64,000 nucleotides of DNA, taken from positions 3,394,001 to 3,458,000 of the forward strand of contig OCMG01000004.1 of the NCBI GenBank assembly GCA_900215285.1, read 5' to 3'. Every line of letters starts with the position of its first letter. Position 1 is the first letter of the stretch. Below are positions 5,345 to 60,947 of this stretch, piece after piece. This DNA comes from Ensifer adhaerens. GTDB taxonomy: Bacteria > Pseudomonadota > Alphaproteobacteria > Rhizobiales > Rhizobiaceae. The notes below the pieces were generated by a model. The model saw nothing but the letters and a program-made list of their open reading frames with translations. It ran no database searches and was not told where the DNA came from. The translations under genes were made by a program, and so were the position numbers.

Positions 5345-5347
5345 CGA

Positions 5348-6235
5348 TCAGTCCGCTCCGCTCCGTCCCGCCTCGCGCAGCAGAAAGTGGCGCAGCGTCC
5401 CGACTTCCGGCCGAGCCAGCGACGTGGGCGGATAGACGAGGAAATAGGCGAGCGCATTGGCCACGCCTTGCGGAAAGGGGGCGACAAGCGTTTCCGCCTC
5501 CAGCTCGCGCGCCACCAGAGAGCGCCGGGCAAGTGCCACGCCATGGCCCGCCCTGGCCGCGTCGATCGCGCCATTGCTGCCGGTAAAGATCGGCCCCGAT
5601 CCGGCCTCCACGCTCTCGGCGCCCACCGCCGCGAGCCAGAGCCGCCAGTCGTCGCGGCTTTCATCATGCAGCAGCGTGTGTCCCGCCAGCGCTTCGGCCG
5701 AGACGAGGACGTCAGCCAAAGCGGGCGCCGCGACGGGCGTCAGCTCATCATCCAGCAGACGCTCGGCCACCAGTCCGTCATAGCGGCCCAGTCCATGACG
5801 GATCGCCAGATCCACGGCATCGCGGCTGAAATCGACCAGCCGATGCGAGATACTGATGCGGACATCGATTCCGGGATGATCCGCCTCGAAACGTCCGAGC
5901 CTCGGCACCAGCCATTGCACGGCCATTGTTGACGTGCAGCTCACCGTGACCACGCGGGCGCGGGCCGTCTTCTGAAGCGCTTCGGTCGCCTCCCGCAGCA
6001 TGCGAAAGGCGACCTTCAGGCTGGCGAAATAGGCCTGCCCCTCCGGCGTCAGCGCCAGTGCGCGCGGCTTGCGGACGAAGAGCTTCAACCCCAGCAGTGT
6101 TTCCAGCTCCTTCACTTGCAGGCTGACGGCGCCCGGGGTTACGCAAAGCTCTTCCGCCGCAAGGCTCATGCTCATATGCCGCGCGGCGGCCTCGAAGGCG
6201 CGCAGGCCGGCGAGCGGGGGAAGCAAGGGGGCCAT
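5348..6235 (-). CDS. LysR-family transcriptional regulator (GcvA-like)
   Basis: 295 aa. Residues 1-65 form the winged helix-turn-helix (AFEAAARHMSMSLAAEELCVTPGAVS...LLGLKLFVR). Residues 90-290 form the effector-binding periplasmic-binding-protein fold (VTVSCTSTMAVQWLVPRLGRF). The wording of the DNA-binding domain (PLAGLRAFEAAARH, PGAVS, QVKELE) is that of the GcvA/AmpR-like subgroup. It is divergent from the DMT exporter at 6382 with 146 bases between them, so it probably controls that gene. It converges on copCD, the two stops 3 bases apart. The effector is unknown. Confidence 0.9.
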   Translation of the reverse strand: MAPLLPPLAGLRAFEAAARHMSMSLAAEELCVTPGAVSLQVKELETLLGLKLFVRKPRALALTPEGQAYFASLKVAFRMLREATEALQKTARARVVTVSCTSTMAVQWLVPRLGRFEADHPGIDVRISISHRLVDFSRDAVDLAIRHGLGRYDGLVAERLLDDELTPVAAPALADVLVSAEALAGHTLLHDESRDDWRLWLAAVGAESVEAGSGPIFTGSNGAIDAARAGHGVALARRSLVARELEAETLVAPFPQGVANALAYFLVYPPTSLARPEVGTLRHFLLREAGRSGAD

Positions 6236-6381
6236 GGTTTAGCAAAACTCAATCATGAACAGAAAAGGACTCGTTTGCAAGAAACGGGTGGATCGCCGAT
6301 TTTGAGGAGAAAATAATGGCTCCACCGCAGGCCGACAACAGGAATCAGCTTTAGCTGACAAAACATGAAAAGGGTCAGATC

Positions 6382-7344
6382 ATGAGTGTACGCAGAACCA
6401 TGGGAGCGGCGGAATGGGCCATGCTGATTGCGCTGTCCCTGTTGTGGGGCGGATCGTTCTTCTTCAATGGCGTGGCGGTGAAGGCCTTGCCGCCGCTGAC
6501 GCTGGTGTTTCTGCGGGTGGCGATGGCGGCACTGACGTTGAATGCCCTGCTCATTGTGCGCGGAACGCCGCTGCCCCTGGACCGGCGCATCTGGAGCGCT
6601 TTTTTCGGCATGGGGCTTCTGAACAATGTGTTGCCGTTCACGCTGATCGTCTGGGGGCAGACGCATATCGCCAGCGGCGTTGCCTCCATTCTGAACGCCA
6701 CGACGCCGCTCTTTGCCGTGATCGCCGCGCATCTTCTGACGGCCGACGAGAAGATGTCGGCCAACCGGGTCTTCGGCGTTCTGGCGGGCTTTTCCGGCGT
6801 CGTGCTCATGATCGGGTCAACCGCGCTGTCGGGCGCGACGGTGAACCTATGGGCACAATGCGCGGTGCTGGGGGCTGCGATCTCCTATTCGCTGGCGGGC
6901 ATTTTCGGCCGGCGCTTCAAGGTCCTTGGGGTTTCGCCGCTCGCCACCGCGACGGGACAGGTCACGGCCTCCGCCATCCTTCTGGCGCCCGTGGCCGCCG
7001 TTGTCGACATGCCCTGGCGGCTCGGCTTTCCGACCGCCGATGTCTGGCTTTCCGTCGCCGGCATCGCGCTGCTTTCGACCGCGCTCGCCTATATCCTCTA
7101 TTTCCGCATCCTGTCCTCGGCGGGGGCCACGAACATCGCGCTCGTCACCTTGCTGATCCCCGTCAGCGCCATCCTGCTCGGGGCGCTGTTTCTCGGCGAA
7201 CGGCTGATGCCGCGCCACATCGGCGGGCTGGCCCTCATTGCCGTCGGGCTTGCCGCCATCGACGGGCGGCCGTTGACGGCGCTGCGCAGGCTGGCGCGCG
7301 GCAAGCGAAGCGATCCGGGTGTCTACATGGGGCGCGATATCTGA
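6382..7344 (+). CDS. EamA/DMT-family exporter
   Basis: 320 aa with about ten membrane segments in two EamA repeats. Repeat 1 begins AEWAMLIALSLLWGGSFFFNG and includes TLVFLRVAMAAL; repeat 2 begins NLWAQCAVLGAAISYSLAGIFGRR and ends with ILLGALFLGERL, the usual EamA signature. Members export metabolites or amino acids, and the substrate is not readable here. The adjacent divergent LysR gene is the likely regulator. The C-terminus (RGKRSDPGVYMGRDI) is cytoplasmic. Confidence 0.9.
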   Translation: MSVRRTMGAAEWAMLIALSLLWGGSFFFNGVAVKALPPLTLVFLRVAMAALTLNALLIVRGTPLPLDRRIWSAFFGMGLLNNVLPFTLIVWGQTHIASGVASILNATTPLFAVIAAHLLTADEKMSANRVFGVLAGFSGVVLMIGSTALSGATVNLWAQCAVLGAAISYSLAGIFGRRFKVLGVSPLATATGQVTASAILLAPVAAVVDMPWRLGFPTADVWLSVAGIALLSTALAYILYFRILSSAGATNIALVTLLIPVSAILLGALFLGERLMPRHIGGLALIAVGLAAIDGRPLTALRRLARGKRSDPGVYMGRDI

Positions 7345-7347
7345 AAA

Positions 7348-8802
7348 TCACACCTTCGCCGCAAGCCGTACGCCGCCCCAATGCCGGCCATTGACGATGA
7401 TGGGGGCGGAGATGTCCTTCATGATGATGAAGTGTCCGCCGCCCATGTCGCGACGGTAGGTCTGCACGAGGAAGGGCTGCGTGTTGCGGCCTGCGCCGAG
7501 GCCGGTGCGATCGTTGAAGATCCGGCGATTGCGGCTGTTGGCCGTGTTCCAATCCACCTCGCCCGGCCGCTGCGCCTGGGAGAATTTCAGGTTATGCGTC
7601 GGCAGGTAGCCGTTTTCGTCCACGCAGGCGCAGAAGGCGAGCGAGGGATCGGCCTCGATGACACCTTCCTGGATGGGCGTGAGCACCCGGTCGGCGAAAT
7701 CGATATAGCGGGTGGAGAACTGTTTCGGGTCGGTGCCGGGGATTTCGCGGTAGCTGCGGTCAAAGAGATCGGCCATGGAAATGCGGCCTGATGCAATGCC
7801 GGCCTCGAAGGCGGCGGAGACGGTGGCCGCAACCTCCTGCACCTTGACGATATAGCGATGATCGGGCGTTTCGATCCCGGCCGTGGCGGCAACCTGGATG
7901 ATGCGCTCGGACATGTCGACGAGACCGTCCACCCGCTCGGCAGCGCCCTGCAGATGCTTGTTGGAGGCCAGCATCTCGTCAAGCGCCGATTCCAATTGGG
8001 TCACGAAGCCGGTGCAGCGTGTCTCGACGCCGGCCGTGGTGCTGGAAAGCTGTTGAGAATTGTCGAGAATGCTGGTGAAAACCTCCTCCATCAGGCGGAA
8101 GGACGCATCCATCGCGGTGGTGATTTCCTTGATCTCGCCCGCCGAACGGGCAGCGCCCTCGCCCGCCTCGCCCAGGCGCAGGATGCGGCTGCGAATGTCG
8201 GAAAGCGTCTTCTGGATCGTTGCCGTCACCGTCGAGGTCTGGAGGGACAGCGCACGGATTTCGGCCGCGACCACGGCAAAACCCTTGCCGGCCTCGCCGG
8301 CGCGCGCCGCCTCGATGGCCGCATTGAGCGCGAGCAGATTGGTCTGGCGGGCGATAGAGCCGATTTCGCCGGCGAACTTGTCGACATCGTTGAGCGAGAC
8401 CGCGAATTGCGAGATTTCTCCGGTAATGTCACCGCTGACCTCGACCATGGCGTCGATGCCGGCAGAAGATCGCACCAGGTCTCCTGCGGATCGCTTCAAT
8501 GCATCGCGCGCACGCCCCGCCATGTGATCGGTGCCGCGCAGCGCGTCCGCAATGCTGCGATTGGCATCGGCAATTTCATGCGCCGTGCCGGTCAATTGGC
8601 GGAAGACATTGGAATGCTTGGCCGATGAGGCCGCCACCGTCTGGATGGCGCCTGCGATGTCGACAAGGTCGATCCCGAGACGGGAGGCATCCTGCGACAA
8701 GCGGACAATCACCTCCCGCAGAAGCTCCGGTGCGGGCGGCGCGTTCGGCGCAGGCTCAGCATCCAGCGGTTCTTCAGGCATGCGATAGGCAGCCGTGTTC
8801 AT
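7348..8802 (-). CDS. Soluble methyl-accepting chemotaxis protein with C-terminal sensory domain
   Basis: 484 aa, no transmembrane segments. Residues about 20-290 form a coiled-coil signalling domain with the hairpin tip [20 protein letters not shown] and [10 protein letters not shown]. The order is reversed from classical receptors: the sensor sits C-terminally (about 310-484), with [20 protein letters not shown] and [20 protein letters not shown], a Cache/PAS-like pattern seen in cytoplasmic rhizobial receptors. It probably senses an internal signal and acts on CheA/CheW. No che genes are adjacent. Ligand unknown. Confidence 0.88.
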
Positions 8803-48504: not shown

Positions 48505-50160
48505 CTACCGGTCACTCACCTCCCAGCGCGGATTGATCCACGGCTGCTGGTTCGAGCGCGCCAGTCGCGGCTTGCCCAGGATATGGTCGGCGGCCTTTTC
48601 GCCGGTCATGATCGAGGGGCCGTTGAGGTTGCCGTAGGTCAGGCGCGGAAAGATGGACGAGTCCGCGACGCGCAGGCCTTCGACGCCGATGACCTTCGTG
48701 TCAGGGTCGACGACGGACATGGGGTCGTCCTTGGCGCCCATCTTGCAGGTGCCGCAGGGGTGATAGGCGCTTTCGAGATGTTCGCGCAGGAAGGCGTCGA
48801 TCTCAGCGTCCGTTTGCACGCCCTCGCCCGGCTGGATTTCCGGGCCCCGATAAGGGTCGAAGGCCTTCTGGGAGAAAATTTCGCGGGTGAGCCGCACGCA
48901 GTGGCGGAACTTCACCCAGTCTTCCTCGTGGCTCATGTAGTTGAACTTGATGACCGGATCGGCCATCGGGTCGGGCGAGCGCAACGTTACGGTCCCGCGC
49001 GATTTCGAATGGTTGTAGCCCACATGGACCTGGAAGCCGTGGCTCTTGGCGGCGGCCTTGCCGTCATACGAGATCGCCACGGGCAGGAAATGGAACTGGA
49101 TGTCCGGCTGCTTCACGCCGGGTGCCGAGCGCACGAAGGCGCAGCTTTCGAACTGGTTGGACGTGCCGAGCCCTGAACGGGCGAAGAGCCATTGCGCGCC
49201 CGCAACGCCCTGCCAGAACCATGGCAGCCAGGAATAGAGCGACACGGGCTTGGTCGCGACCTGCTGAAAGTAAAATTCCATGTGGTCCATCAGGTTTGCG
49301 CCGACGCCGGGACGGTCGGCGACGACCTCGATGCCCATCTCCTTCAGATGCGCCGCCGGGCCGATGCCGGAGAGCATGAGGAGCTTCGGCGAATTGAAGG
49401 ACGAGGCGGACACGATGACTTCGCGGTTGGCGCGCACCACTTCGATCTTGCCGCCGCGATCCACTTCCACGCCCACGGCGCGCTTGCCTTCGAAGACGAC
49501 GCGGCGGGCAAAGCAGCGCAGCAGATCGACATTGGGCCGCTTCAGCGCGGGCTTCAGATAGGCGGAGGCCGCCGACCAGCGCTTGCCCTCATGGATCGTC
49601 TGCTCCATCAGACCGAAGCCTTCCTGCTTCTCGCCGTTATAGTCCTCCGTCGTCTCGAACCCGGCCTCGCGGCCCGCCTCGACGAAGGCGCGCACGAGAG
49701 GATTCTTGGCCGGCCCGCGCTGGACATGCAGCGGCCCGTCGGTGCCGCGCCAGCCGGCCTGCCCGCCCTTGGAGTTTTCCTGCCGCTTGAAATAGGGCAG
49801 CACGTCGGCATAGGCCCAGCCGGTTGCGCCCAGCTCGTCCCAGGTGTCGAAATCCTCCGCGGAGCCACGCACATAGACCATGCCGTTGATCGACGACGAC
49901 CCGCCGATGACCTTGCCGCGCGGGGCGGTGATGCGGCGGTTGTTGAGGTTCGGCTCTGGCTCGGAGAGATAACCCCAATTGTAGCGCTTCATGCTCATCG
50001 GCCAGGCAAGCGCTGCCGGCATCTGGATGAACGGGCCGACGTCGGAGCCACCGTATTCCAGCACGAGCACGTTGTAGCGGCCGTCTTCCGAGAGGCGGGC
50101 GGCGAGTGCGGAACCGGCAGAGCCGGAGCCTACGATGACGTAATCAGCTTGCATGGTCAT
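48505..50160 (-). CDS. betA: Choline dehydrogenase BetA
   Basis: 551 aa, a GMC-family flavoenzyme oxidising choline to betaine aldehyde. The FAD-binding [17 protein letters not shown] is at the N-terminus, with the GMC signature [19 protein letters not shown], and the catalytic His region [12 protein letters not shown] near the C-terminus. Length is normal. In related rhizobia betA follows betB directly; here about 1.1 kb of unrelated sequence separates them, so betA may need its own promoter. The hicA stop region lies downstream. Confidence 0.93.
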
Positions 50161-50211
50161 TGGGAGCTCCCATTACGCTCTGTTAGCCACGACCAAATCG
50201 TATGGCCGATC

Positions 50212-50631
50212 TTGTATTTGTGGTTGTTGAAATTTGCAGGTGCCAATGCCATCTTGGGGTTGTATCGGCGGAAGGGGTTTGAATTTCACGTGACCGGAAA
50301 AGGTTTCAGCAAGACGGTGTTGGAGCGGCTTCAAGCGGTCTCGCGGGAAAGCGTCGCAGCGGAGCAACGCAGGGCGGAGCTTGTGAAGCGTAGCCCGAAT
50401 GTTCAGCAGCAGCGTTGGGATAGTCAGCCGTTCTTCTTCAGATACAGCCTCGGCATGATGCGATTCAGCGCCTATCTGTTTGCAATTGTTTTGATTGCTC
50501 GCTGCCTGTCCGAGCTTACGGTGATCCCTTTTCATGTCTTCTTCATTCTTCTGATGACACTTGTGATCTTCGACGCATGGCAGCGCGCCAAGCGGCGATG
50601 GGGCTTGCCGGAAAAACGTGACGGAGAGTGA
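50212..50631 (+). CDS. Small membrane protein of unknown function
   Basis: About 139 aa. Hydrophobic segments lie at the start (LYLWLLKFAGANAILGLY) and at about residues 80-120 (RFSAYLFAIVLIARCLSEL, FHVFFILLMTLVIF). A basic amphipathic middle (FSKTVLERLQAVSRESVAAE) links them. The start is uncertain, TTG 50212 being one choice. GC is lower than in the flanking bet genes. It runs opposite to bet and is followed by an XRE-type gene after 60 bases. No family is recognised. Confidence 0.45.
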   Translation: MYLWLLKFAGANAILGLYRRKGFEFHVTGKGFSKTVLERLQAVSRESVAAEQRRAELVKRSPNVQQQRWDSQPFFFRYSLGMMRFSAYLFAIVLIARCLSELTVIPFHVFFILLMTLVIFDAWQRAKRRWGLPEKRDGE

Positions 50632-50691
50632 GGTCAGGCCCAAATTCCCGCTGTGATTGTTTGAAAAACAGTCTTCTACTATGGTGTTGCC

Positions 50692-51045
50692 ATGGAAATC
50701 GACATCCAGAAGATCACGCTCGACGGCAAGAATTACGTGCTCCTCAGCGAGGACGACTTCGAGGACATGATCGACGGCTTGAAGGCTCAGGCGGTTCTCG
50801 CGCGTGTTCAGGCGGGCGAGGAAACGTGGCCGTGGGAGATCGTGGAGGCTCGCGCAAATAGCGAAAACTCCGTGCGGGTTTTCCGCAAATACCGCGGCAT
50901 GACCATGACGGAGCTGGCGGCGGCCGTGGGAATTTCGCAGACGCATCTGTCGGATATCGAGAACGGCAAGAAAACGGGTTCGGTCGATGTGCTGAAGCGG
51001 ATTGCTGTGGCGCTGAAGGTCGATCTGGATGATCTGGTGGTTTGA
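50692..51045 (+). CDS. XRE-family transcriptional regulator / antitoxin-like protein
   Basis: 117 aa. The N-terminal 45 residues (GKNYVLLSEDDFEDMIDGLKA) resemble the dimerisation part of small antitoxins; the C-terminal HTH is GMTMTELAAAVGISQTHLSD then IENGKKTGSVDVLKRIAVAL. No toxin gene adjoins in the usual place, only the small membrane protein at 50212. ATG 50692 is preceded by GGTGTTGCC, a poor ribosome site. It may regulate itself or be a remnant of a mobile module inserted in the bet locus. Confidence 0.75.
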   Translation: MEIDIQKITLDGKNYVLLSEDDFEDMIDGLKAQAVLARVQAGEETWPWEIVEARANSENSVRVFRKYRGMTMTELAAAVGISQTHLSDIENGKKTGSVDVLKRIAVALKVDLDDLVV

Positions 51046-51064
51046 AGTGTTGGCGGAAGCGTCA

Positions 51065-51265
51065 CACTCCTCCGTCATGCTCGGGCCTGTCCCGAGCATC
51101 TGCTCCGTTGCAACTGCGGTGACTTGCGTAGATCCTCGGGACAGGCCCGAGGATGACGACGGGTGGGGTGCCCGTCGGCGGGCTGAATGATCCAACGACG
51201 AACGGGTCCTTTCGCGCGACGGACGTCGCGCGGCTGGATCCCGGATCAAGTCCGGGATGACGGGA
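51065..51265. repeat. Cluster of REP-like palindromes between betB and betA
   Basis: Inverted units are present: CATGCTCGGGCCTGTCCCGA, GATCCTCGGGACAGGCCCGA followed by GGATGACG, and CTGGATCCCGGATCAAGTCC followed by GGGATGACG. Each is a C/G-rich palindrome ending in ATGACG, a kind widespread in rhizobial intergenic DNA. A further half-palindrome of the third unit overlaps. No gene is seen. Confidence 0.7.
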
Positions 51266-51290
51266 AGTGGGAGGGGGCCGCTCACCACCA

Positions 51291-52754
51291 TCAATACGGC
51301 GCCTCGCATGCGCCCATCGCGACATAGACCGTCTTCAGCTCGGTATAGTGGTTCAGCGCGGCGAGCGAATTCTCGCGGCCGAAGCCGGATTGCTTGACGC
51401 CGCCGAAGGGGATTTCGACGGGGCAGAGGTTGTAGGTGTTGATCCAGACCGTGCCGGCCTCCAGCGCGTCGACCACGCGATGGGCGCGGGCCATGTCGGC
51501 AGTGAAGACGCCGCCGGCGAGGCCGAATTCGGTGGCATTGGCGCGGGCGATCACCTCGTCCTCATGGTCGAAATCGAGAACGCACATGACGGGGCCGAAG
51601 ATTTCCTCGCGGGCAATCGTCATGTCGTCGGTCACGTCGGCAAAGACGGTCGGCTGGACGAAGCAGCCTTCGGAGGAGACATCGTTGGGAATGCCGCCGC
51701 CGGTCAGGAGACGCGCGCCCTCGGCCTTGCCCTTCTCGATATAGCCCAGCACTTTTTCGCGCTGCGAGCGGTTGACAAGCGGGCCCATCTGGGTCGCCTC
51801 GTCCAGCGGCTCGCCCATGCGGATCGCTTCGGTGCGCTCTTTTAGGCGTGACAGGAATTGCTCCTTGATGCCCTTCTGCACGAAGACGCGGGTGCCGTTG
51901 GAGCAGACCTGGCCGGCGGAGTAGAAATTGCCGAGCATGGCGCCGGAAATGGCGCTTTCGACATCGGCATCGTCGAAGACGATCATCGGCGACTTGCCGC
52001 CGAGTTCCATGGTGACATGCTTGAGCTGACCGGCAGCGGCACCCGCCACCTTGCGGCCGGTCGGCACGGAGCCGGTCAGCGAGACCTTGGCGATGTCGGG
52101 ATGGTTGACCAGCAGCGGGCCGGCCTCGCGGTCGCCCTGCACGACATTGAACAGGCCCTTGGGCAGGCCCGCCTCGATCATGATTTCGGCGATCTTCAGC
52201 GCGCCGAGCGGCGTCACTTCAGACGGCTTGAAGATGAAGGCATTGCCGGCGACGAGCGCGGGGGCTGCCTTCCAGCAGGCGATCTGCTGCGGATAGTTCC
52301 ATGCGCCGATGCCGAGCACGATGCCGAGCGGAATGCGCTTCGTATAGGCCCAGTCGGCGCCGAGCGGGATCTGCTCGCCATTGAGCGCGGCAGGCGCGAC
52401 GCCGCCGAAGAATTCCATCGCATCCGCGCCGGAGGTCGAGTCGGCGACAATCGTTTCCTGGATCGGCTTGCCGGTGTCCAGCGTTTCCAGTTCGGAGAGT
52501 TCGCGGTTGCGCTCGCGGATGATCTGCGAGGCGCGATAGAGGATGCGGCCGCGCGCCGTCGGGCTCATCTTCGCCCAATCCTTTTGGGCAGCCTTGGCCG
52601 AGGCAATCGCCTTCTCGACTATTGCCGGCGTGGCGGAATGCAGCCGTGCGATCACCTCGCCGGTGGCCGGATAGACGCATTCGATGACGTTACCGGCGGT
52701 GTCCTCGATATACTCGCCGTTGATGAAATGGCTGGCTTTCGGTTGGGCGCGCAT
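51291..52754 (-). CDS. betB: Betaine aldehyde dehydrogenase BetB
   Basis: 487 aa, an NAD(P)-dependent aldehyde dehydrogenase giving glycine betaine. Catalytic Cys in [15 protein letters not shown], general-base Glu in [13 protein letters not shown], and cofactor loop [18 protein letters not shown]. Residues 148-175 ([20 protein letters not shown]) are the family norm. It follows betI by 30 bases on the same strand, so both are probably under the operator at 53406. Confidence 0.93.
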
Positions 52755-52784
52755 GGCTCGCTCTCTTTCTTTTCAGGAGTCGCT

Positions 52785-53372
52785 TCAGCGGGTTACCGCG
52801 TTCAATTTCAAGGTTACGTAATCTTCCACCAGCGCCACCGCCTCCCCGACATCGAGGCGCGCAGCGTCCAGCGCGCGGCGGATGTAGAAGCCGTCAATCA
52901 GCGCTGCTGCGCCTTCTGCAATGTGGTGCGCCTCTACCCTGCCACAGAGCGGCGACAGGGCCGCGACAAGGTTGGAATGGAGACGACGGGCATAGACGGT
53001 GAGCAGGCGCCTGGTCTCGTCCGAGCGCTGCGCCTCGACATAGAAGGCGAGCCAGGCGGCAACCGTGGAGGCGGCGAACTGCTCAGCCCCGAAAGAGACG
53101 GCGATCAGCGCGTTGACCTTGCCACGCGGCGTCTCGGCCTGGCGCATGGCGGCTACCGCCTCTTCCTTTAATTGACGCAGGAGGCTGCGCATGGTGGCGA
53201 GCAGCAATTGCTCCTTGGAACCGAAATAGTGGAACGCGAGCGCGGGTGACACGCCGGCGCTTTTGGCGATTTCCTGCATCGTGACGTCGAGCGACCCGTG
53301 ATCGCCGATCGCCTTCAGCGCGGCATCCACAAGCGCCTTGCGGCGAACTGGCTCCATTCCGATTTTAGGCAT
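52785..53372 (-). CDS. betI: Transcriptional repressor BetI
   Basis: 195 aa, TetR family. The HTH is [20 protein letters not shown] then [20 protein letters not shown]. The ligand domain contains [19 protein letters not shown]. BetI represses bet genes and lets go on choline. The start [17 protein letters not shown] is the BetI beginning. A palindromic operator lies 34 bases upstream at 53406. Confidence 0.93.
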
Positions 53373-53405
53373 GACGGCATCCTCTTGATGAAAGCCAGTC
53401 TAATT

Positions 53406-53425
53406 TTGATTGATCCATCAATCAA
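53406..53425. promoter_or_regulatory. BetI operator
   Basis: TTGATTGATCCATCAATCAA is a perfect inverted repeat (9-bp arms, 2-base centre) located 34 bases upstream of the betI start. BetI sites in other bacteria contain ATTGATTG-type arms, so this is the most likely BetI target. It may also overlap the betI promoter. Confidence 0.85.
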
Positions 53426-53835
53426 TAAAAAATCGGCGGGATGGCGAACTTGCAAAGAAGATTCTTTTCGATCTCTCAACCAACTGAAAGTTCTTACTTT
53501 TTCTGAAGGACACCCGGGACTGACAAGCCTCGCGGGGCGCATTCACTGCAGGTGCAATCGCTTCGATCGGCGGGAATAGCCCCTCGTCCGTCATTGGCAC
53601 GGCCTGGAAGTCCCCTCACCCGATTACGTCGCACCGGCCTGCGCGGCGGACCTCAATAACCAGCCTGACGGGCCACTCGCACACGTGCGCCGATGGCTGA
53701 AGGCAACATCACCATGTCAGATTTCTCTTTTTTGGTGTTGTTAACAATATTTCTTTCTTTAGTTGTATTTTGCGCTGGACATTCGGGTCCGCTCGCGCTC
53801 TTCTTTCCCCGTACCCAATATCCTGGAGGGGCGGG
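53426..53835. other. Intergenic region upstream of the lipoprotein gene
   Basis: About 410 bases, more AT-rich than its surroundings, especially 53715-53765 (TTGGTGTTGTTAACAA then TATTTCTTTCTTTAG). It probably holds the promoter of the lipoprotein/lysozyme unit. No gene or terminator is seen. Confidence 0.4.
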
Positions 53836-54921
53836 ATGCGGTGGTTTCGCATAATGGTGGGATGCGTGGCGGCGCTGGCGACAGCGGCCTGCAGCCCCAT
53901 GTCCGAGCAATATCTGGACGGAGGCGTCGGCTCCGCGCTCAATTCGGGCCAGCTGAGCCAGGAGACGGAGCGGCAGGACGAGTATATCTATTACATCTGC
54001 CGTCAGAGCGGCGGCTCCGAGACTGCTGGCGCGGGGGCAAGAGGGTGCTCCATCAGCAGCTGGCCGACATTCATCACGGCGGGGATGAACGATATCGACC
54101 GGCGATGCGATGCCTATCTCACATGGCTGGACTCGCAGAGACGCAACAGACCTGCCGTGCTTGAACAGATCTCCGCCACAGGGACCGCGACAAGCGGCAT
54201 CTTAAGCGTGACCGGCGCCGGAACGAAAGCCATGGCGCTCGTGGCCTCCGCCTTCGGACTGGCAGGCGCAACGTATGGCAACTGGAATTCCCGGCTCTTG
54301 CTGGCGGTCGACCATTCCACGGTGCAGGCGCTGGTTTACCGGCGCCAGGAACAATTTCGGCAGGACAACATCAGCGCCATCAAAAGCGTGTCCGACCGCC
54401 CGACCGCGATTTATCTGTTGCGCGGCTACCTGCGTATCTGCATGCCGATGACGATCGAGACCGATATCAACAGCACGATAACCCTTGTGCAGAGCGACGC
54501 CCCGCAATCCGTGGTGCGTGCGGCGATCGTCCGCCCGGCGGGCATTGCGGGCGCGATTTCGGATGTCGGCAAACCGTTTCCCGAGCCGAAGCGCTACGAG
54601 AACCCGAACCTGAAGAACAAGCTGACAGACAAGGAACGTGGCCTGTCTGACTCTCGGATCGCAGAGCTTCAACGGGCGCTTTGCATCAAGACGCCAACGG
54701 AGAGCTTCGGACCGAGGGGATCGGAGATCAGGAAGGCGATGTCCGAGTTCTTTGTTGGCGCAGGTCTGGGAGCGTCCGAGACAATCAAGGATCAGCGGAT
54801 GTTGGATCGCTTGACCAAGGGGGCCGACGACCTCATCGGCGACGGCGAAACATGCCAAAGCAAGGGCTATGCGAATGCCCGTGCAGTCGGCGAAGCCGTG
54901 AAACCGGCCAAGAAGAGCTAG
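53836..54921 (+). CDS. Lipoprotein with a peptidoglycan-binding-like C-terminal segment
   Basis: 361 aa. The lipobox ALATAAC follows a basic N-terminus, so Cys19 is probably lipidated. The mature part is Cys-rich (YYICRQSGG, ARGCSISSW, DRRCDAYL), with a hydrophobic helix near 120-150 (SVTGAGTKAMALVASAFGLA). Residues about 270-310 (SDSRIAELQRALCIKTPTES then FGPRGSEIRKAMSEFF) look like a PG_binding_1 repeat. Start ATG 53836 has CTGGAGGGG upstream. It is followed after 61 bases by the lysozyme-like gene, so the two may act together. No named family. Confidence 0.72.
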   Translation: MRWFRIMVGCVAALATAACSPMSEQYLDGGVGSALNSGQLSQETERQDEYIYYICRQSGGSETAGAGARGCSISSWPTFITAGMNDIDRRCDAYLTWLDSQRRNRPAVLEQISATGTATSGILSVTGAGTKAMALVASAFGLAGATYGNWNSRLLLAVDHSTVQALVYRRQEQFRQDNISAIKSVSDRPTAIYLLRGYLRICMPMTIETDINSTITLVQSDAPQSVVRAAIVRPAGIAGAISDVGKPFPEPKRYENPNLKNKLTDKERGLSDSRIAELQRALCIKTPTESFGPRGSEIRKAMSEFFVGAGLGASETIKDQRMLDRLTKGADDLIGDGETCQSKGYANARAVGEAVKPAKKS

Positions 54922-54982
54922 GTCAGCTCCATCGAAGAGGAGCCGGCCTCGCATCCATTCAAAGAGCAAAATGGGGGCTGAA

Positions 54983-55945
54983 ATGGCAGACATCAATCCG
55001 AAAAGCTTTGCAAATCACTGCGTAACGGTCGGTGCCATGTATGGGGCCAGCGCCCATTACGTCATGGCCGTGGCGATGCTGCGATCACAACTCAAGGATG
55101 ACGCGAAGGACGGCAAGGCCGGACCCTATGCCTGGACCCAAGCCGAATGGGACGCCAATCCCGACCGGCAGAATCCCGCGCTGGGCTCTCCTTACGAGAC
55201 CGATGAAATATTCGACTGGCGCGCGCAGGTCAGCGTGTTCACTCTGATGACGATCAGACAGTTTACGGCGCTGCAACTGAAACTGGGGCAAAACCCGAGC
55301 GCCCTGCAGCTCTATCTGGCGCAGTGGCCCGAAGAGGGCGATGCGCTTGTCGGCAACCTGCAAAAGGCCTGCGACGACACGAGGCAGGCAATCCTCGATG
55401 CCCTCGACAAGCAGTTTCCCGATCCTGCGCAGGCAGCGGCCCAGGCCATCGACGGGCCGAAAAGCCCCGTCCCCCCGCAGTCCTCCATGCCGCCGGCCAG
55501 CCTCAAGACGAGGCTGCAGCGCAATCAGTGGATAGCCTATCATGCCGCGCTCGGCGCCGGTCTTGGCGATCCTCCCGCGCGTGCGATGGTGGCAAATCTC
55601 AGCGGTGAATCTCTCAGCAATCCGGCGGACGTGCATTTCGACGTGTCACATATCGCGCGCGGAATTGTGCAATGGGATCCTGGCCGGTCGGATGCGATCA
55701 AAGCCCATTTCGGCCGTTATCCGAACGAGATGTCAGTCGAAGATCAGACACGGGCGGCGATCTGGGAAATTCAGTCAAATTCGGCCTACAAGGAGACCCG
55801 AGACGCGCTTTTCGTGCCGGGCAAGAGTGTCGAGGACATGATTGGGGTTCTGGTCAGGAACTACGAGAGGCCGGCCAAACCGGATAAAGCAATCGCTGAC
55901 CGCATCAAGTTTCTACCGGCTCTGGCTAAAGTGCTCCAGGCCTAA
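54983..55945 (+). CDS. Phage-tail-lysozyme-like protein with a conserved N-terminal domain
   Basis: 320 aa, no signal peptide or membrane helix. Residues 5-110 form a domain with CVTVGAMYGASAHYVMAVAM, then GPYAWTQAEWDANPDRQ and ALQLYLAQWPEEGDALVG, recalling the scaffold of lytic-transglycosylase-like proteins. After a Pro-rich linker (PVPPQSSMPPAS) the C-terminal 145 residues read ARAMVANLSGESLSNPADVH then ARGIVQWDPGRSDAI and MSVEDQTRAAIWEI, fitting the phage tail lysozyme fold (ES, GIxQW, R, Q..W.E). The Glu in SGESL is the probable catalytic acid. It may cut peptidoglycan; the export route is unclear. Confidence 0.7.
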   Translation: MADINPKSFANHCVTVGAMYGASAHYVMAVAMLRSQLKDDAKDGKAGPYAWTQAEWDANPDRQNPALGSPYETDEIFDWRAQVSVFTLMTIRQFTALQLKLGQNPSALQLYLAQWPEEGDALVGNLQKACDDTRQAILDALDKQFPDPAQAAAQAIDGPKSPVPPQSSMPPASLKTRLQRNQWIAYHAALGAGLGDPPARAMVANLSGESLSNPADVHFDVSHIARGIVQWDPGRSDAIKAHFGRYPNEMSVEDQTRAAIWEIQSNSAYKETRDALFVPGKSVEDMIGVLVRNYERPAKPDKAIADRIKFLPALAKVLQA

Positions 55946-56380
55946 CGAGGAACGGCCGGTCTTCTGCGTAAGCCTTTGCAACGATCTTGACCGAGGACCA
56001 TAGCAGCCACCTGAGCCTTGACGGGCGCAAAGGTGTCGCATGGTCGTGACCCGTGATCGCCGATCACTGTCAGAGCGGCATTCACGTGAGCGATGCGGCG
56101 ACTGGTCTGGTTGCATTTTCCGGCTGCCGAATTCTCCCTGATGGATGTCGACGTGATCTGATGGGGGCCTCAATCACCGAGAATCGGCCTGCGGATGCGA
56201 AATCCCGGAAGCCTGTGTTTGCCTCTTCTTAACCTTGCGAAAACGCAATGATTTCAAACCCATCGCGTCGGGCATCCTGTCACAGAAGTTTCATATCCGG
56301 TGAAGGATTTGTTGACGATTAGAATTGAAGTTCTTGATCATATTCCAACAAGCCCCGCTCGCCCCCGTCGGAGTTTCAAC
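55946..56380. other. Intergenic region
   Basis: About 435 bases of mixed composition after the lysozyme-like gene. No terminator with U-run, no conserved box and no convincing gene is seen. A GTG-started extension of the downstream protein (56300) would cover the last 81 bases but lacks a ribosome site. Confidence 0.35.
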
Positions 56381-58174
56381 ATGCCCGCAATCCTTCCGCT
56401 GAAAGGTCACGATCCGGCGGCTTATAGCCGGATGGCGCTCATGCCGCTGGCCAAGGCCGCGCTCGACACGGCCTTCCAGCCGATTGTCGAAACCGTGTCC
56501 GGCAAGATCCACGGCTATGAATCGCTGATGCGTGGGCATGACAAGCTGGGCTTCGACACGCCGCCGGCGCTGCTGGATACATTTGCGCTTTCCGGCGAAC
56601 TGACCGACCTCGAACTTTTCACGACGTCGCGCGCCTTCGCCAAGTTCACATCGCTCGCCGAGTTCGAGAAGCGCACACTGTTCCTCAATCTCGATCACCG
56701 CATGCTCGCAACCGGCCAGCGCCTGCTGCCGCTGCTGCTCGCCTATCTGCAGAAGAATGCCATCTCGCCCTCCTCCGTCTGCATCGAGCTGTCGGAACGT
56801 TCGGACAATTCCAGCGCGCCCGACTTTCCCGACCTGATCGCCCAGATGCGGCGCATGGGCTTCAAGCTGGCGATCGACGATTTCGGCACGGGCCATGCCG
56901 AGATGAAGCTTCTGAGCGACTACGACCTCGACTACCTGAAGATCGACCGGCATCTCGTCTCCAAGATCGACGCATTGCCGCGCAAGCGCCATCTGACCAA
57001 GACGGTCGTCGACATGGCCCATGTTCTGGGTGTTCGCGTCATTGCGGAAGGCGTCGAGACAGAGGGCGAGTTCCTCGTCTGCCGCGATCTCGGCATAGAC
57101 CTCGTGCAGGGCTGGTTCGTGGCCTACCCCTCGCTCGATCCGTCCGAGTTCCGCGATGGTTTCCCGCATTTGCGCGATCTCGGACAGAACCGGCGCGTGC
57201 GCCGTTCGGTCGACGAGGTGCTGGTGCGCCAGCAGGTGGAAGCCGTGCCGACGATCCGCGAGGATGCCGCGATCGAGACCCTGTTCGAGATTTTCCGCCA
57301 GCATTCCGATCTGCCCTTCATTCCGGTCGTCAACGCCCATGGCGAGCCGCGCGGGATCGTTCAGGAGGCCCGGCTGAAGAGCTACATCTACCAGCCCTAT
57401 GGGCGCGACCTTCTGCAGAACCGCTTCTATGGTGGAACCATCGCCCGCTTCATCGATCCCGCCCCCGTGGTCGACATCGGAGCGGATTCGAACAGGCTCA
57501 TGGCCGTGTTCTCCGGCACAGAAGATGCGAAATGCGTGATCCTCACCGAAAACATGCGCTATGCCGGGGTGATTTCGGCGGCCGCACTCGTCAAGATCAT
57601 CAACGCCAAGCTGGTGCGCCAGGCGCAGGACCAGAACCCGCTGACGGGACTTCCCGGCAACCAGGCGATCCATTCCTATCTTGAGGAGACGATGGCGGAT
57701 GGGGGCGCAACGCGGCATTTCTGCTATTGTGACTTCGACAATTTCAAGCCGTTCAACGATCATTACGGCTTCCAGCGCGGCGACGAGGCGATCTCGCTCT
57801 TCGCCCGGCTGATGAAACGCTACTTCTTCTCGCCCTCCATCTTCCTCGGCCATGTCGGCGGCGACGACTTCTTTGCCGGGATGACGGGCTGGTCGAACGA
57901 GGAACTGGAAATGATCTTCGAGCGGCTGCTTGAGGATTTTGAAAACGATGCGCTCAGGCTCTATGCACCAGAAGATCGGGAACGCGGGCATATCGAGGGC
58001 GTCGATCGCGCCGGCATCCGCCGCGCCTTCGATTTCCTCAGTTGCTCGGTCGCCATCATCGAAGTGCCCGCAGGCCGGGTCTTTGGCGATCCGGCGGTGC
58101 TTTCGGCCCATATTGCGGGCCTCAAGAAGCGGGTGAAGTCAAACCGCGACGGAATCCTGTTCCAGACGATCTAG
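56381..58174 (+). CDS. EAL-CBS-GGDEF cyclic-di-GMP protein
   Basis: 597 aa, cytoplasmic. The EAL domain (about 15-250) keeps the catalytic set: HGYESLMR, NLDHRM, ELSERS, IDDFGTGHAEMK, LKIDRHL, EGVETE and QGWFVAYP; the motif is ESL instead of EAL, a tolerated change. A CBS pair (about 270-400) holds VPTIREDAAIETLFEIF. The C-terminal GGDEF domain has FCYCDFDNFKPFNDHYGFQR and HVGGDDFF, i.e. GGDDF in place of GGDEF, so cyclase activity is doubtful. It probably degrades c-di-GMP with control by nucleotide at CBS or the GGDEF site. Confidence 0.88.
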   Translation: MPAILPLKGHDPAAYSRMALMPLAKAALDTAFQPIVETVSGKIHGYESLMRGHDKLGFDTPPALLDTFALSGELTDLELFTTSRAFAKFTSLAEFEKRTLFLNLDHRMLATGQRLLPLLLAYLQKNAISPSSVCIELSERSDNSSAPDFPDLIAQMRRMGFKLAIDDFGTGHAEMKLLSDYDLDYLKIDRHLVSKIDALPRKRHLTKTVVDMAHVLGVRVIAEGVETEGEFLVCRDLGIDLVQGWFVAYPSLDPSEFRDGFPHLRDLGQNRRVRRSVDEVLVRQQVEAVPTIREDAAIETLFEIFRQHSDLPFIPVVNAHGEPRGIVQEARLKSYIYQPYGRDLLQNRFYGGTIARFIDPAPVVDIGADSNRLMAVFSGTEDAKCVILTENMRYAGVISAAALVKIINAKLVRQAQDQNPLTGLPGNQAIHSYLEETMADGGATRHFCYCDFDNFKPFNDHYGFQRGDEAISLFARLMKRYFFSPSIFLGHVGGDDFFAGMTGWSNEELEMIFERLLEDFENDALRLYAPEDRERGHIEGVDRAGIRRAFDFLSCSVAIIEVPAGRVFGDPAVLSAHIAGLKKRVKSNRDGILFQTI

Positions 58175-58189
58175 GCGCAACCGTGGCTA

Positions 58190-58216
58190 CGGAGCGCTTC
58201 AGCGCAAAGCGCTCCG
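58190..58216. terminator. Perfect hairpin between the convergent EAL-GGDEF gene and a small lipoprotein gene
   Basis: CGGAGCGCTT pairs with AAGCGCTCCG around a 7-base loop. No U-run adjoins. It lies 16 bases after the EAL-GGDEF stop and may end transcripts from both sides. Confidence 0.6.
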
Positions 58217-58253
58217 GATCTTCTGCTGAATTCGGGTCATCGGCCGGCAGTGC

Positions 58254-58457
58254 CTAGCGCCAGTGGCCGCGATGCCAGTAGCCGCGGCGGTCGTAGTGTC
58301 CCGGCACCCAGTATCCGCCGTCCCGATAATATCCGCGATAGGGGTAGTAATATCCGCTGTGGCGAACCACGACCACCTCGTCGGCAGGGTATTCGACGCA
58401 ACCCGCCAGTGTTCCCGCTCCCGCGACAATCATTGCCATTACGATCAGACGCTTCAT
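58254..58457 (-). CDS. Small Tyr/Gly-rich lipoprotein
   Basis: 67 aa. The lipobox LAGC follows MKRLIVMAMIVAGAGT. The mature 48 residues are rich in Tyr, Arg and Gly (SGYYYPYRGYYRDGGYWVPG then HYDRRGYWHRGHWR), like the YXWXXGHW repeat proteins of unknown function found in Proteobacteria outer membranes. AGGACAGGCAA precedes the start. Function unknown; perhaps an envelope structural lipoprotein. Confidence 0.75.
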   Translation of the reverse strand: MKRLIVMAMIVAGAGTLAGCVEYPADEVVVVRHSGYYYPYRGYYRDGGYWVPGHYDRRGYWHRGHWR

Positions 58458-58714
58458 TTGCCTGTCCTCACATTCTGCTGACCCATTCTGCGTGAGCGCA
58501 ATTTACGGCAAAAATTGGCTCATGATGATGCGCGCCGCAGATGCTGGACGGGACGCGCCGTGATCCCTATCTGATTGGGTGCCTTGAAAATTTCGGGTAC
58601 AGCAATCATCGGTCCACGGCGCGCTCCCGCCGGGACGACAGGCAGCCAATATTTCGTTTGCCTTCACCCGGCATCTGTCGGAGGATCGGCGACAAAACAA
58701 CAATGAGGACGCAC

Positions 58715-59722
58715 ATGAACGCCCCATCAACAACCCTGCCCCAGACCATGCGCCATGTCGATCTGACCGCCCCCGGGGGACCGGAGGCGATGAAGATCGT
58801 CGAAGGCCCCGTGCCTCAGCCGAAGGCAGGCGAGGTGCTGGTGAAGGTTCATGCTGCGGGTGTGAACCGGCCCGACGTGGCGCAGCGGCAGGGCACCTAT
58901 CCGCCGCCGCCGGGGGCAAGCCCGATCCTCGGGCTGGAAGTGGCCGGCGAGGTCGTGGCGCTGGGCGAAGGTGTCTCCGGCTTTTCCATTGGGGAGAAGG
59001 TGGCCGGTCTCGCCAATGGCGGGGGCTATGCGCAATACTGCGTCGTGCCGGCCGGACAGGCCCTGCCCTGGCCCAAGGGCTATGACGCGGTGCGCGCGGC
59101 AGCCGTGCCGGAAACCTTCTTCACCGTCTGGGCCAATGTCTTCGACATGGCCGGCCTGAAGGCGGGCGAGAAGTTCCTCGTTCATGGCGGCACGAGCGGC
59201 ATCGGCACGGTGGCGATCCAGCTCGCCAAGGCCTTCGGCGCCGAGGTCTATACGACAGCCGGCTCCGGCGAGAAGTGCCTTGCCTGCGTACAGCTTGGGG
59301 CGAAGCGGGCGATCAATTACAAGACGGAGGATTTCCTTTCCGTCATCAGGGAAGAGGCCGGATCGGTCGATGTCATTCTCGACATGATCGGCGGCTCCTA
59401 TTTCGACAAGAATATCGGGGCGCTAGGCAAGGACGGCCGGCTTTCGATCATCGCCCTGCTCGGTGGGGCGGTGGCGGAGAAGGCCAATCTCGGCGCGATC
59501 ATGATGAAGCGGCTGCGCGTCATGGGCTCGACGCTGCGGCCCCGCACCGGCGACGAGAAGCGGGCCATTCGCGATTCACTGCTGGAGAAGGTCTGGCCGA
59601 AGCTCGATGCCGGCGAGATCGCACCGGTGATCCACGCCGTCCTGCCGCTGGAACAGGTGGCGGAAGCCCATCGCGTGATGGAAGAGAGCGGGCATATCGG
59701 AAAGATCGTGCTGACGCTCTGA
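58715..59722 (+). CDS. NAD(P)H quinone oxidoreductase (zeta-crystallin/PIG3-like, MDR family)
   Basis: 335 aa. [20 protein letters not shown] and [20 protein letters not shown] are typical of the PIG3-like quinone reductases, and the NADPH-binding loop is [23 protein letters not shown]. It lacks the structural zinc cysteines. It reduces quinones or reactive carbonyls. ATG 58715 has GAGG six bases upstream; the ATG at 58703 is another in-frame possibility. It converges with the MFS gene (4-base gap). Confidence 0.92.
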
Positions 59723-59726
59723 ACGG

Positions 59727-60947
59727 TCAGCCGGCCGTGCCCTTCTGTGGCAGGTGCACCCCGCGTTCGATCGCGATCAGCAGCAGGGATGCCGCCAGGG
59801 TGATCGCCGCGCCGACGATGGCCGTGCCCTGATAGGACGTGAAATGGGTGGCGACGGCGAATGTGCCCGCCGCCGCCCCGGTGCCGAGAAAGGTCTGCAT
59901 CGGATAGAGCGAGGTGCCGAGCCCCGGCCGCTCCGGAAACATGTCCTGAAAATAGGAGATGGGGACGGAAAGGATTGCGGCGGCCCCCGCACCGGCAATC
60001 GGGATCAGCGCATGGACCTGCCAGACGCTTGTCGCAAGGCCCAGCCCCACCAGATAGACCGCATAAAGCGCCGAGCCTGCCGCCAGCGTCGTGACCGGAC
60101 CGAGCCGGCGCAATGCCGACGCCCAGGCAAGCATGAAGGGAATTTCCATCAGCGCGATACCGCTCGCCATGAAGCCGGCTTCCCCCAGGGTTCCGCCCAG
60201 AGTCGTCTTGATGATGAGCGCCTGGACATAGCCGTTCAGCCAGTTGACCGAACTCAGCAGCGAGACGGCGACGAGGCGAAGCAGGATGGCGGGATGGGCA
60301 AGCTCCTTCAGCGCCGCGCGGAACCCGGCAAGGCCGCCGGGTGCGGAGCCGGCGCGCGCCGTGTCCGGCAGAAAGATCAGGACAAGCACGAGGCAGAGTC
60401 CGAAGAGGCAGGCCATGACGGCCCAGACATTCATGACACCGAGCCCGCCCGTTTCCAGGACCAGAGCGACGGCGACCGGGATGAAGACCCAGGAGGCCGA
60501 CATGGTGGTGCGCACCACCGAATTGACAGAGGCGGCCTCGCGCGGATCGAGGCTCGCGGCTTCCATGCGCGTGCCGGCATAGATCATGGGGTTGATATTG
60601 GCGAAGGGCAGAAGGCAGATCACGGCCAGCGCCATCATCCAGGCCGTTTCCACCATCCAGATCAGGAGCGCGGCCGCAACACCGACCGACAGCAGGATCG
60701 CCATGAGCCGCCGGCGGTTGCCGGCAAAATCCGACACGATGCCGATGCAGACGCCAAAGACGAGCGCCGTCAGCGTCGACAGGAGCATCATGGCGGCAAA
60801 GGCCTGCTCGCTCATATGCAGCGTGTCGATGGCGATAAGCGCCCGATAAGGCAGCACGCAGGCCCCGGCCGAGGACGCGATGAACATCAACAGGCCATAG
60901 ATGCGCAGCACCGGATGGTGCGCGACGAAGCGGATGGTGGATAGCAT
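59727..60947 (-). CDS. MFS transporter, SetA-like (copy 1)
   Basis: 406 aa with 12 membrane helices. MLSTIRFVAHHPVLRIYGLL at the start and the MFS loop GIVSDFAGNRRRLMAIL are clear, and the later segment ALIPIAGAGAAAILSVPISYF then QDMFPERPGLGTSLYP recalls sugar efflux transporters of the SetA type. It is strongly similar along its whole length to the next gene, so they are tandem paralogues. The substrate is unknown; the sugar assignment is inference. Confidence 0.85.
   Translation of the reverse strand: MLSTIRFVAHHPVLRIYGLLMFIASSAGACVLPYRALIAIDTLHMSEQAFAAMMLLSTLTALVFGVCIGIVSDFAGNRRRLMAILLSVGVAAALLIWMVETAWMMALAVICLLPFANINPMIYAGTRMEAASLDPREAASVNSVVRTTMSASWVFIPVAVALVLETGGLGVMNVWAVMACLFGLCLVLVLIFLPDTARAGSAPGGLAGFRAALKELAHPAILLRLVAVSLLSSVNWLNGYVQALIIKTTLGGTLGEAGFMASGIALMEIPFMLAWASALRRLGPVTTLAAGSALYAVYLVGLGLATSVWQVHALIPIAGAGAAAILSVPISYFQDMFPERPGLGTSLYPMQTFLGTGAAAGTFAVATHFTSYQGTAIVGAAITLAASLLLIAIERGVHLPQKGTAG

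Follow-up and report, generated by a model that had tools for sequence, protein, structure and literature searches.

A candidate mobile cassette in Ensifer adhaerens: a predicted polymorphic wall-hydrolase toxin and a matching lipoprotein protector

Results

The gene pair and its domains

A 64,000-nucleotide stretch of Ensifer adhaerens DNA (contig OCMG01000004.1 of assembly GCA_900215285.1, positions 3,394,001 to 3,458,000; hereafter the window) contains two adjacent genes, of which the first encodes a lipoprotein (gene A) and the second a predicted peptidoglycan-cutting enzyme (gene B). The two-gene unit of an original prediction, which had been made from the sequence alone, was recovered, with both genes on the same strand (Table 1). 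With a probability of roughly 0.55, the pair is read here as a horizontally acquired cassette encoding a predicted polymorphic wall-hydrolase toxin and a matching lipoprotein protector.

The C-terminal half of gene B had been described as tail-lysozyme-like, and a search with PF18013 (Phage_lysozyme2) had been named as a check that could also refute this. The family was matched with an E-value of 2.5e-13 (score 50.8 bits, cut-off 28.2 bits), and phi29 gp13 (3csr) with an E-value of 2.8e-5. Glu209 falls on gp13 Glu45, which we take to be the catalytic residue, and a glutamate occupied this position in 25/25 aligned rows having the PF18013 domain there. Gene B thus shares its C-terminal domain and the position of the catalytic glutamate with gp13 and the PF18013 tail lysozymes, but lies outside a phage, is fused to a second domain and is partnered by a lipoprotein. 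Its flanks are ordinary rather than phage tail genes, and no phage record held a relative of either window protein at an E-value of 1e-5. The proline-rich linker was present as described, and a hydropathy rule found no hydrophobic N-terminal stretch, in agreement with the proposed lack of a signal peptide. A second in-frame ATG lies at 54971.

The N-terminal half, previously termed unfamiliar, was found to be a lytic transglycosylase (SLT)-like domain. A profile of 20 such N-domains matched phiKZ gp144 with an E-value of 4.8e-8, the alignment running along nearly the whole of the profile. A narrow profile (A2), built from close kin of the window domain only, did not reach an SLT structure, and when 10 N-domains were scanned with PF01464 (SLT), one (L009) scored above the cut-off (27.4 versus 21.3 bits), two (L008 and L067) scored below it, and seven, the window domain among them, gave no match. 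With an iterated profile, the SLT-like domain was detected in 33 of the 38 proteins adjoining gene A or its relatives, that of the window included; this is a small set, from which the close copies L003, L016, L021, L028, L029, L034 and L038 had been excluded beforehand, and control searches with each sequence reversed and shuffled 20 times returned no matches at E ≤ 10. Among genomes of the same family the N-domain was found in 3/394, the own genome included, each time with the lipoprotein upstream, while scans of the genome_contigs and viral_contigs collections yielded 77 and 43 candidate stretches, respectively, none of which was confirmed.

In the gp144 alignment, the glutamate of the family falls on Glu115, which is described as the catalytic residue (PMC5406664), whereas gene B has Arg34 at this place. 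Glutamate was retained in 19 of 33 domains; the other 14 had arginine (7), alanine (3), glutamine (2), serine (1) or histidine (1). Because five different residues have replaced it, the catalytic glutamate appears to have been lost more than once in the family. The SLT-like domain of gene B is likely to be inactive, though not with certainty, since a gp144 Glu115 mutant is described in the same paper as keeping about 30% of its activity (PMC5406664).

Gene A proved to be the cysteine-rich lipoprotein that had been proposed. The lipobox cysteine (Cys19) and another six cysteines were kept in at least 60 of the 66 aligned members, as expected for an oxidising compartment. At least 164 relatives were found at E ≤ 0.001 among the 8000 candidates scored, a lipobox being recognised by a simple rule in 33 of 38 lipoproteins; only 2 of the 38 partner proteins exceeded the hydropathy threshold within their first 45 residues. 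Gene A had no match in NCBIfam, PADLOC or the PDB sequences, its best Pfam hit (E = 0.3) was far below cut-off, and NCBIfam holds no model for either window protein. The peptidoglycan-binding-like repeat attributed to gene A was not confirmed: Pfam detected none in gene A itself, PG_binding_1 included, but PF01471 (PG_binding_1) matched 17 of the 66 aligned lipoproteins.

Table 1. Features of the gene pair and its insertion site (positions within the window).
Feature	Position	Strand	Basis
Gene A: lipoprotein, 361 aa, without Pfam family	53836..54921	+	Open reading frame, translation, Pfam and profile searches
Leader and lipobox (Cys19) of gene A	53836..53892	+	Cys in 63/66 aligned members, 3 gaps
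Constant lipoprotein core of gene A, to about residue 215, with Cys55, 71, 91 and 202	53893..54480	+	
Variable lipoprotein tail of gene A (Cys283, Cys340), swapped with the hydrolase in relatives	54481..54918	+	
Gene B: predicted wall hydrolase, 320 aa, N-terminus not hydrophobic	54983..55945	+	Open reading frame, Pfam, hydropathy rule
SLT-like domain of gene B, residues 4-123	54992..55351	+	Profiles, gp144 alignment
Arg34 codon of gene B, at the place of gp144 Glu115	55082..55084	+	Alignment
Pro-rich linker of gene B	55430..55513	+	Translation, by eye
PF18013 phage tail lysozyme domain of gene B, residues 181-308	55523..55906	+	Pfam, 3csr match
Glu209 codon of gene B, aligned with phi29 gp13 Glu45	55607..55609	+	Alignment
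Inserted segment	53449..56047	.	Absent at the site in 5/5 congeners (tblastn/blastn, L096-L100); 59.8% GC
Partial, diverged copy (81%) of the betI 5' region (source 53293-53351), right insert edge	56048..56105	+	

Occurrence of the pair in other genomes

When genome_contigs was scanned with the profile of the lipoprotein, 32 loci were obtained, mostly from genera of Hyphomicrobiales (including Bradyrhizobium, Rhodopseudomonas, Rhizobium, Roseibium and Methylobacterium), with one (L016) in a metagenome-assembled genome labelled Armatimonadetes. The gene downstream of the lipoprotein was wall-hydrolase-like in all 31 loci with sequence there (L040 ends), the criterion being a Pfam match, an SLT-like domain or membership of a blast cluster of such proteins. 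Among 11 further genomes, the partner had an SLT-like or cutting domain in 8; the exceptions had PG_binding_1 only (L069), ankyrin repeats (L066) or nothing recognised (L070). The original prediction had staked itself on the two genes occurring together elsewhere, and this co-occurrence was observed. At L066 (G504, 3986-7817), two tandem family lipoproteins are followed by one ankyrin-repeat protein, the start of which looks SH3-like by eye. A survey of the order found a match in at least 14/397 genomes, the own genome included, a lower bound with at most four candidates scored per genome, and a survey of the class in 3/288 other genomes, with the contig ending at L072. L071 matched the lipoprotein profile by its later part only.

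Distant or core-only relatives with no recognised hydrolase adjoining lie at L073 (3446-4867), L074 (3461-4864), L004 (1363-2172) and L005 (1372-2226). For L073 and L074 this was judged by inspection rather than by a family scan; L004 and L005 are congener lipoproteins with no gene B beside them as far as the fetched stretches show. The function of these lipoproteins may reveal the role of the core. The congener G001 has a pair of its own at another position (L003), the hydrolase of which runs off the fetched stretch.

The lipoprotein was also found in 11 plasmid records, of which 8 are predicted to be conjugative and some are near-duplicates. In each of the five records viewed, one of them from Skermanella (Rhodospirillales), a hydrolase was annotated next to it as 'phage tail tip lysozyme', 'cell wall hydrolase' or 'NlpC/P60', the lipoprotein itself being a 'hypothetical protein' or unannotated. 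At seven loci from several genera (L008, L014, L015, L023, L026, L029 and L036), the same gene, presumably UvrB, stands downstream of the pair, which reflects either a common site of insertion or long-standing vertical descent. Frames were interrupted in the hydrolase of L009 (11332-12858) and the lipoprotein of L062 (3980-5329), these being either decaying copies or draft errors.

Polymorphism of the cutting domain

The partner proteins differ widely in their cutting chemistry. PF18013, CHAP, M15_3, M23, DUF2272, Hydrolase_2, GH24 and Amidase_2 were each found above cut-off in at least one protein, and VanY, DUF3380 and DUF2778 were added from precomputed annotation. Searching with gene B gave 28 proteins. 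Six relatives at 60% identity or less had only the N-terminal 165 or so residues, about half of the query, in common with it, and behind this part they carried VanY (P0023), DUF3380 with PG_binding_1 (P0025), M23 (P0026), Amidase_2 (P0029) or no named domain (P0027 and P0028). Between P0023 and P0025, the N-domains share 76% identity, and no similarity was detectable in the parts that follow. Others diverged less: P0024 matches gene B in both halves, P0017 and P0018 (62-63%) have DUF2778 after PF18013, and P0030, matched over 37%, carries PF18013. A shared N-terminal part with exchangeable toxin domains, as looked for in polymorphic toxins, is therefore present in the family of the pair. The idea that gene B is a domesticated tail enzyme holds at most for its C-terminal domain, as the relatives have many other cutting domains.

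P0028 and P0029 have N-domains 79% identical and unrelated C-termini; both are listed with contigs of 31561 bases and are probably on one contig. In L022 (4411-5139) and L035 (10921-11727), the lipoprotein core is retained, but its partner is a phage-type lysozyme (GH24) whose different N-terminus is SPOR-like by eye and which has no SLT-like domain.

Block exchange of the lipoprotein tail and the hydrolase

Pairwise comparison of loci (n = 8) showed that, in some of them, the tail and the hydrolase have been exchanged as a block. At a syntenic site in Rhodopseudomonas and Bradyrhizobium (L012, L013 and L020), identity is about 74-88% over most of the flanking DNA (69% in one short piece) and 71-76% in the lipoprotein core, whereas no alignment was obtained through the tail and the whole hydrolase, and similarity resumed some 30-160 bases past the hydrolase stop. 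The same pattern was seen for L014/L026. A short core piece alone was aligned in L020/L024, and the core was unmatched at the DNA level in L014/L015.

Metagenome lipoproteins (93 of 121 entered this test) gave a similar picture. For cores at least 90% identical (44 pairs), the tails were alike in 37, unalike in 6 (which derive from five proteins) and intermediate in 1; for cores 80-90% identical (164 pairs), the corresponding numbers were 94, 58 and 12. Gradual divergence of the tail was rejected, as the tails of like-core pairs were clearly alike or clearly not, with few intermediates.

Mantel tests, with the end of the lipoprotein core set by a motif, were performed on 31 of the 38 pairs (L009 was left out for its stop, L022 and L071 because the core end was not recognised, and L033, L035, L066 and L069 as lacking the SLT-like domain). 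Given the core, tail similarity correlated with hydrolase similarity (r = 0.29, p = 0.0005; in the 18 pairs of a non-redundant set, r = 0.23, p = 0.018), while core similarity given the tail did not (r = 0.07, p = 0.24; non-redundant, r = -0.14, p = 0.84).

Insertion site and mobility

In all five congeners compared by tblastn and blastn (L096-L100), betI adjoins the EAL gene with neither gene A nor gene B between them, whereas about 2.6 kb separates the two in the window. The alignments of L096-L099 run to 53431-53448 and resume at 56048, thus reaching the edges of the insert; the fifth congener, L100, is more diverged. In the congeners, the alignments of the two flanks have about 140 bases in common, and the right edge of the insert carries a copy (81%) of 58-59 betI bases, which suggests that the insert came by recombination from a relative.

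These observations bear on the alternative that the two proteins form a wall-remodelling pair, in which the lipoprotein would anchor, activate or localise a hydrolase acting on the cell's own wall during growth, appendage assembly or lysis of a few cells. Modular SLT and peptidoglycan-binding parts, the latter in the minority of lipoproteins noted above, are what it would predict, as are the retention of the SLT glutamate in 19/33 domains and a tail that tracks the SLT-like domain. The original prediction had listed this option, and a housekeeping role fits poorly with presence in so few genomes of the order and an empty site in every congener; a freely exchanged cutting chemistry and an enzyme without an evident signal peptide also speak against it. 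We regard it as unlikely.

The seven flanking proteins (48508-60947) belong to ordinary Pfam families, namely GMC oxidoreductase, helix-turn-helix, aldehyde dehydrogenase, BetI-type TetR, EAL/GGDEF, zinc dehydrogenase and major facilitator superfamily proteins, and a PHROGs scan of them returned regulators, metabolic or unnamed families or nothing, with no tail or capsid family; the absence of phage genes around the pair was thereby corroborated. The claim that the pair lies in lower-GC DNA held in direction, but the difference is mild (59.8% in the insert against 63.2% in the window). An AT-rich stretch before gene A, as claimed, was seen by eye only, but the promoter proposed there was not confirmed: a scan of 53400-56400 for sigma-70-like sites gave one match (0.8 expected), at 56312, downstream of the pair. 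No Rfam match at gathering scores was obtained in 52000-58000, and no tRNA was found in the whole window.

Defence and delivery markers

Immediately upstream of gene A, within the insert, a T-rich stretch contains a strongly hydrophobic open reading frame of 53 codons (53693-53854). It has no relative among the fetched loci, and such a frame occurs at that place in 3/51 loci only; it is perhaps a chance frame, and a holin-like reading of it was dropped for want of relatives. The frame would have suited an anti-phage or altruistic lysis function, in which a cytoplasmic hydrolase attacks the cell's own wall once a membrane hole or phage infection gives access and the lipoprotein acts as brake or sensor. 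The enzyme's lack of an evident signal peptide, its lysozyme kinds, which phages also use, and a mobile, diversifying two-gene cassette are in keeping with such a role. Against it, beside the isolation of the hydrophobic frame, none of five proteins tested matched a PADLOC defence model at E-values up to 0.1, and a known anti-phage defence system was rejected on this basis. An anti-phage or altruistic lysis function is rated improbable, a shade below wall remodelling.

Markers of delivery routes were surveyed in 27 carrier genome handles (26 for PF09931), two of which, G001 and G435, seem to represent the same genome; the survey covered carriers other than those of L011, L016, L017, L019, L022, L027, L034, L038 and L040 and those found later. 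The type VI secretion system (T6SS) protein TssC/VipB (PF05943) was found in 4/27 handles and not in the own genome (G000), which is rated 100% complete. The suggestion that gene B may be a T6SS-type cargo was thus not upheld: a polymorphic hydrolase with a lipoprotein partner does resemble a T6SS effector with its immunity lipoprotein, but with TssC/VipB missing from 23/27 handles and from G000 this reading is largely refuted for the strain and can be considered most improbable. The VirB10 family of the type IV secretion system (T4SS) was present in 14/27 handles, with two copies in G000, and the T4SS was rejected as a common route on this count. PF09931, which we take to be a tail family forming part of gene transfer agents, was found in 11/26 genomes, the own one included, and not found in 15/26. 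A role in a gene transfer agent or tailocin, for lysis or as cargo, would account for the tail-lysozyme domain and for the genomes with PF09931; set against the genomes in which that family was not found, flanking proteins without a structural phage family and the lack of related phage records, it is very unlikely. In 5/26 carrier genomes, none of the T6SS, T4SS and gene transfer agent-type markers was found.

Discussion

The preferred interpretation is that the pair constitutes a toxin with its own protector. Gene B would be made in the cytoplasm and cut peptidoglycan by means of its lysozyme domain with the catalytic glutamate, while the SLT-like module, probably inactive, would serve in binding the wall or the partner. 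Gene A would be exported as a lipoprotein and shield the producer's own wall from gene B or its close kin, the variable tail providing the match and the constant core an anchor or some shared function. Free exchange of the cutting domain throughout Hyphomicrobiales, and of the lipoprotein tail along with the enzyme, would resemble that in effector-immunity sets. This interpretation is based on the exchange of cutting domains, the co-exchange of the tail, the sporadic and mobile occurrence, and the finding that the lipoprotein has a leader whereas the enzyme has none evident. Of the options offered by the original prediction, an antibacterial lysozyme with a periplasmic protector fits the tail and hydrolase co-exchange and the polymorphic cutting domain best, though its activity is something that we infer.

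Several observations weigh against this interpretation. The tail correlated more strongly with the SLT-like domain (r = 0.41; non-redundant, 0.34) than with the cutting half (r = 0.16 and p = 0.01; non-redundant, 0.04, p = 0.34), and given the core and the SLT-like domain, no correlation with the cutting half remained (r = -0.12, p = 0.93). These are not the correlations expected of a plug for the lysozyme active site. They may mean that the tail contacts the SLT-like domain, but joint inheritance of adjacent DNA through close linkage could be enough to yield them. The core itself also showed a correlation with the cutting half (r = 0.24, p = 0.02). Swaps are not seen everywhere, as L014/L029 (69%) and L018/L021 (96%) align across the whole pair, and the unlike tails beside near-identical cores reflect few events. 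Core-like lipoproteins also occur alone (L004, L005 and L070), and the tandem lipoproteins of L066 precede a protein without a recognised cutting domain. No T6SS, T4SS or gene transfer agent-type marker was common to all carriers surveyed. Finally, a core of such length and conservation is unlike what most immunity proteins have.

The closest described case appears, by analogy, to be XAC2609/XAC2610, an X-Tfe/X-Tfi pair of Xanthomonas. There, a lysozyme effector without a signal peptide is accompanied by an immunity protein with a lipobox that prevents self-damage, and loss of XAC2610 leads to self-damage independently of the T4SS (PMC10933484), which implies that a protector can be needed even without an export machine. 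Both systems combine a cytoplasmic wall hydrolase lacking an evident signal peptide with a lipobox partner. They differ in that the lipoprotein described here joins an exchangeable tail to a constant core. Furthermore, an XVIPCD-like motif, applied as a pattern match rather than a domain profile, was found in 0/38 partner proteins, and VirB10 is present in only about half of the carrier handles. The self-regulating muramidase PrgK of pCF10 is reported to be likewise a multi-domain wall-cutting protein, but one that forms part of a conjugation machine, and T4 Spackle is reported to be likewise a periplasmic protein, inhibiting the tail lysozyme gp5, but to act in T4 superinfection exclusion.

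More tentatively, and as a possibility that we rate below even odds, the pair may represent a mobile polymorphic wall-hydrolase system of alphaproteobacteria that is independent of the T6SS and T4SS and is unnamed within the literature and NCBIfam searched. The lipoprotein gene would then be the recombination anchor, its constant core joined to a replaceable specificity tail that is swapped as a block with the hydrolase, and the repeatedly inactivated transglycosylase domain would be a docking or targeting module. The pair is in any case more general than originally thought, and what sets it apart is a lipoprotein that is half constant and half swapped, together with the missing delivery route. 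If the toxin-protector interpretation is true, the pair would belong to a new family of antibacterial wall-hydrolase/protector pairs in Hyphomicrobiales, root-nodule isolates included; it would also predict which half of the lipoprotein sets specificity, for which the natural swaps at one site (L012, L013 and L020) could be used.

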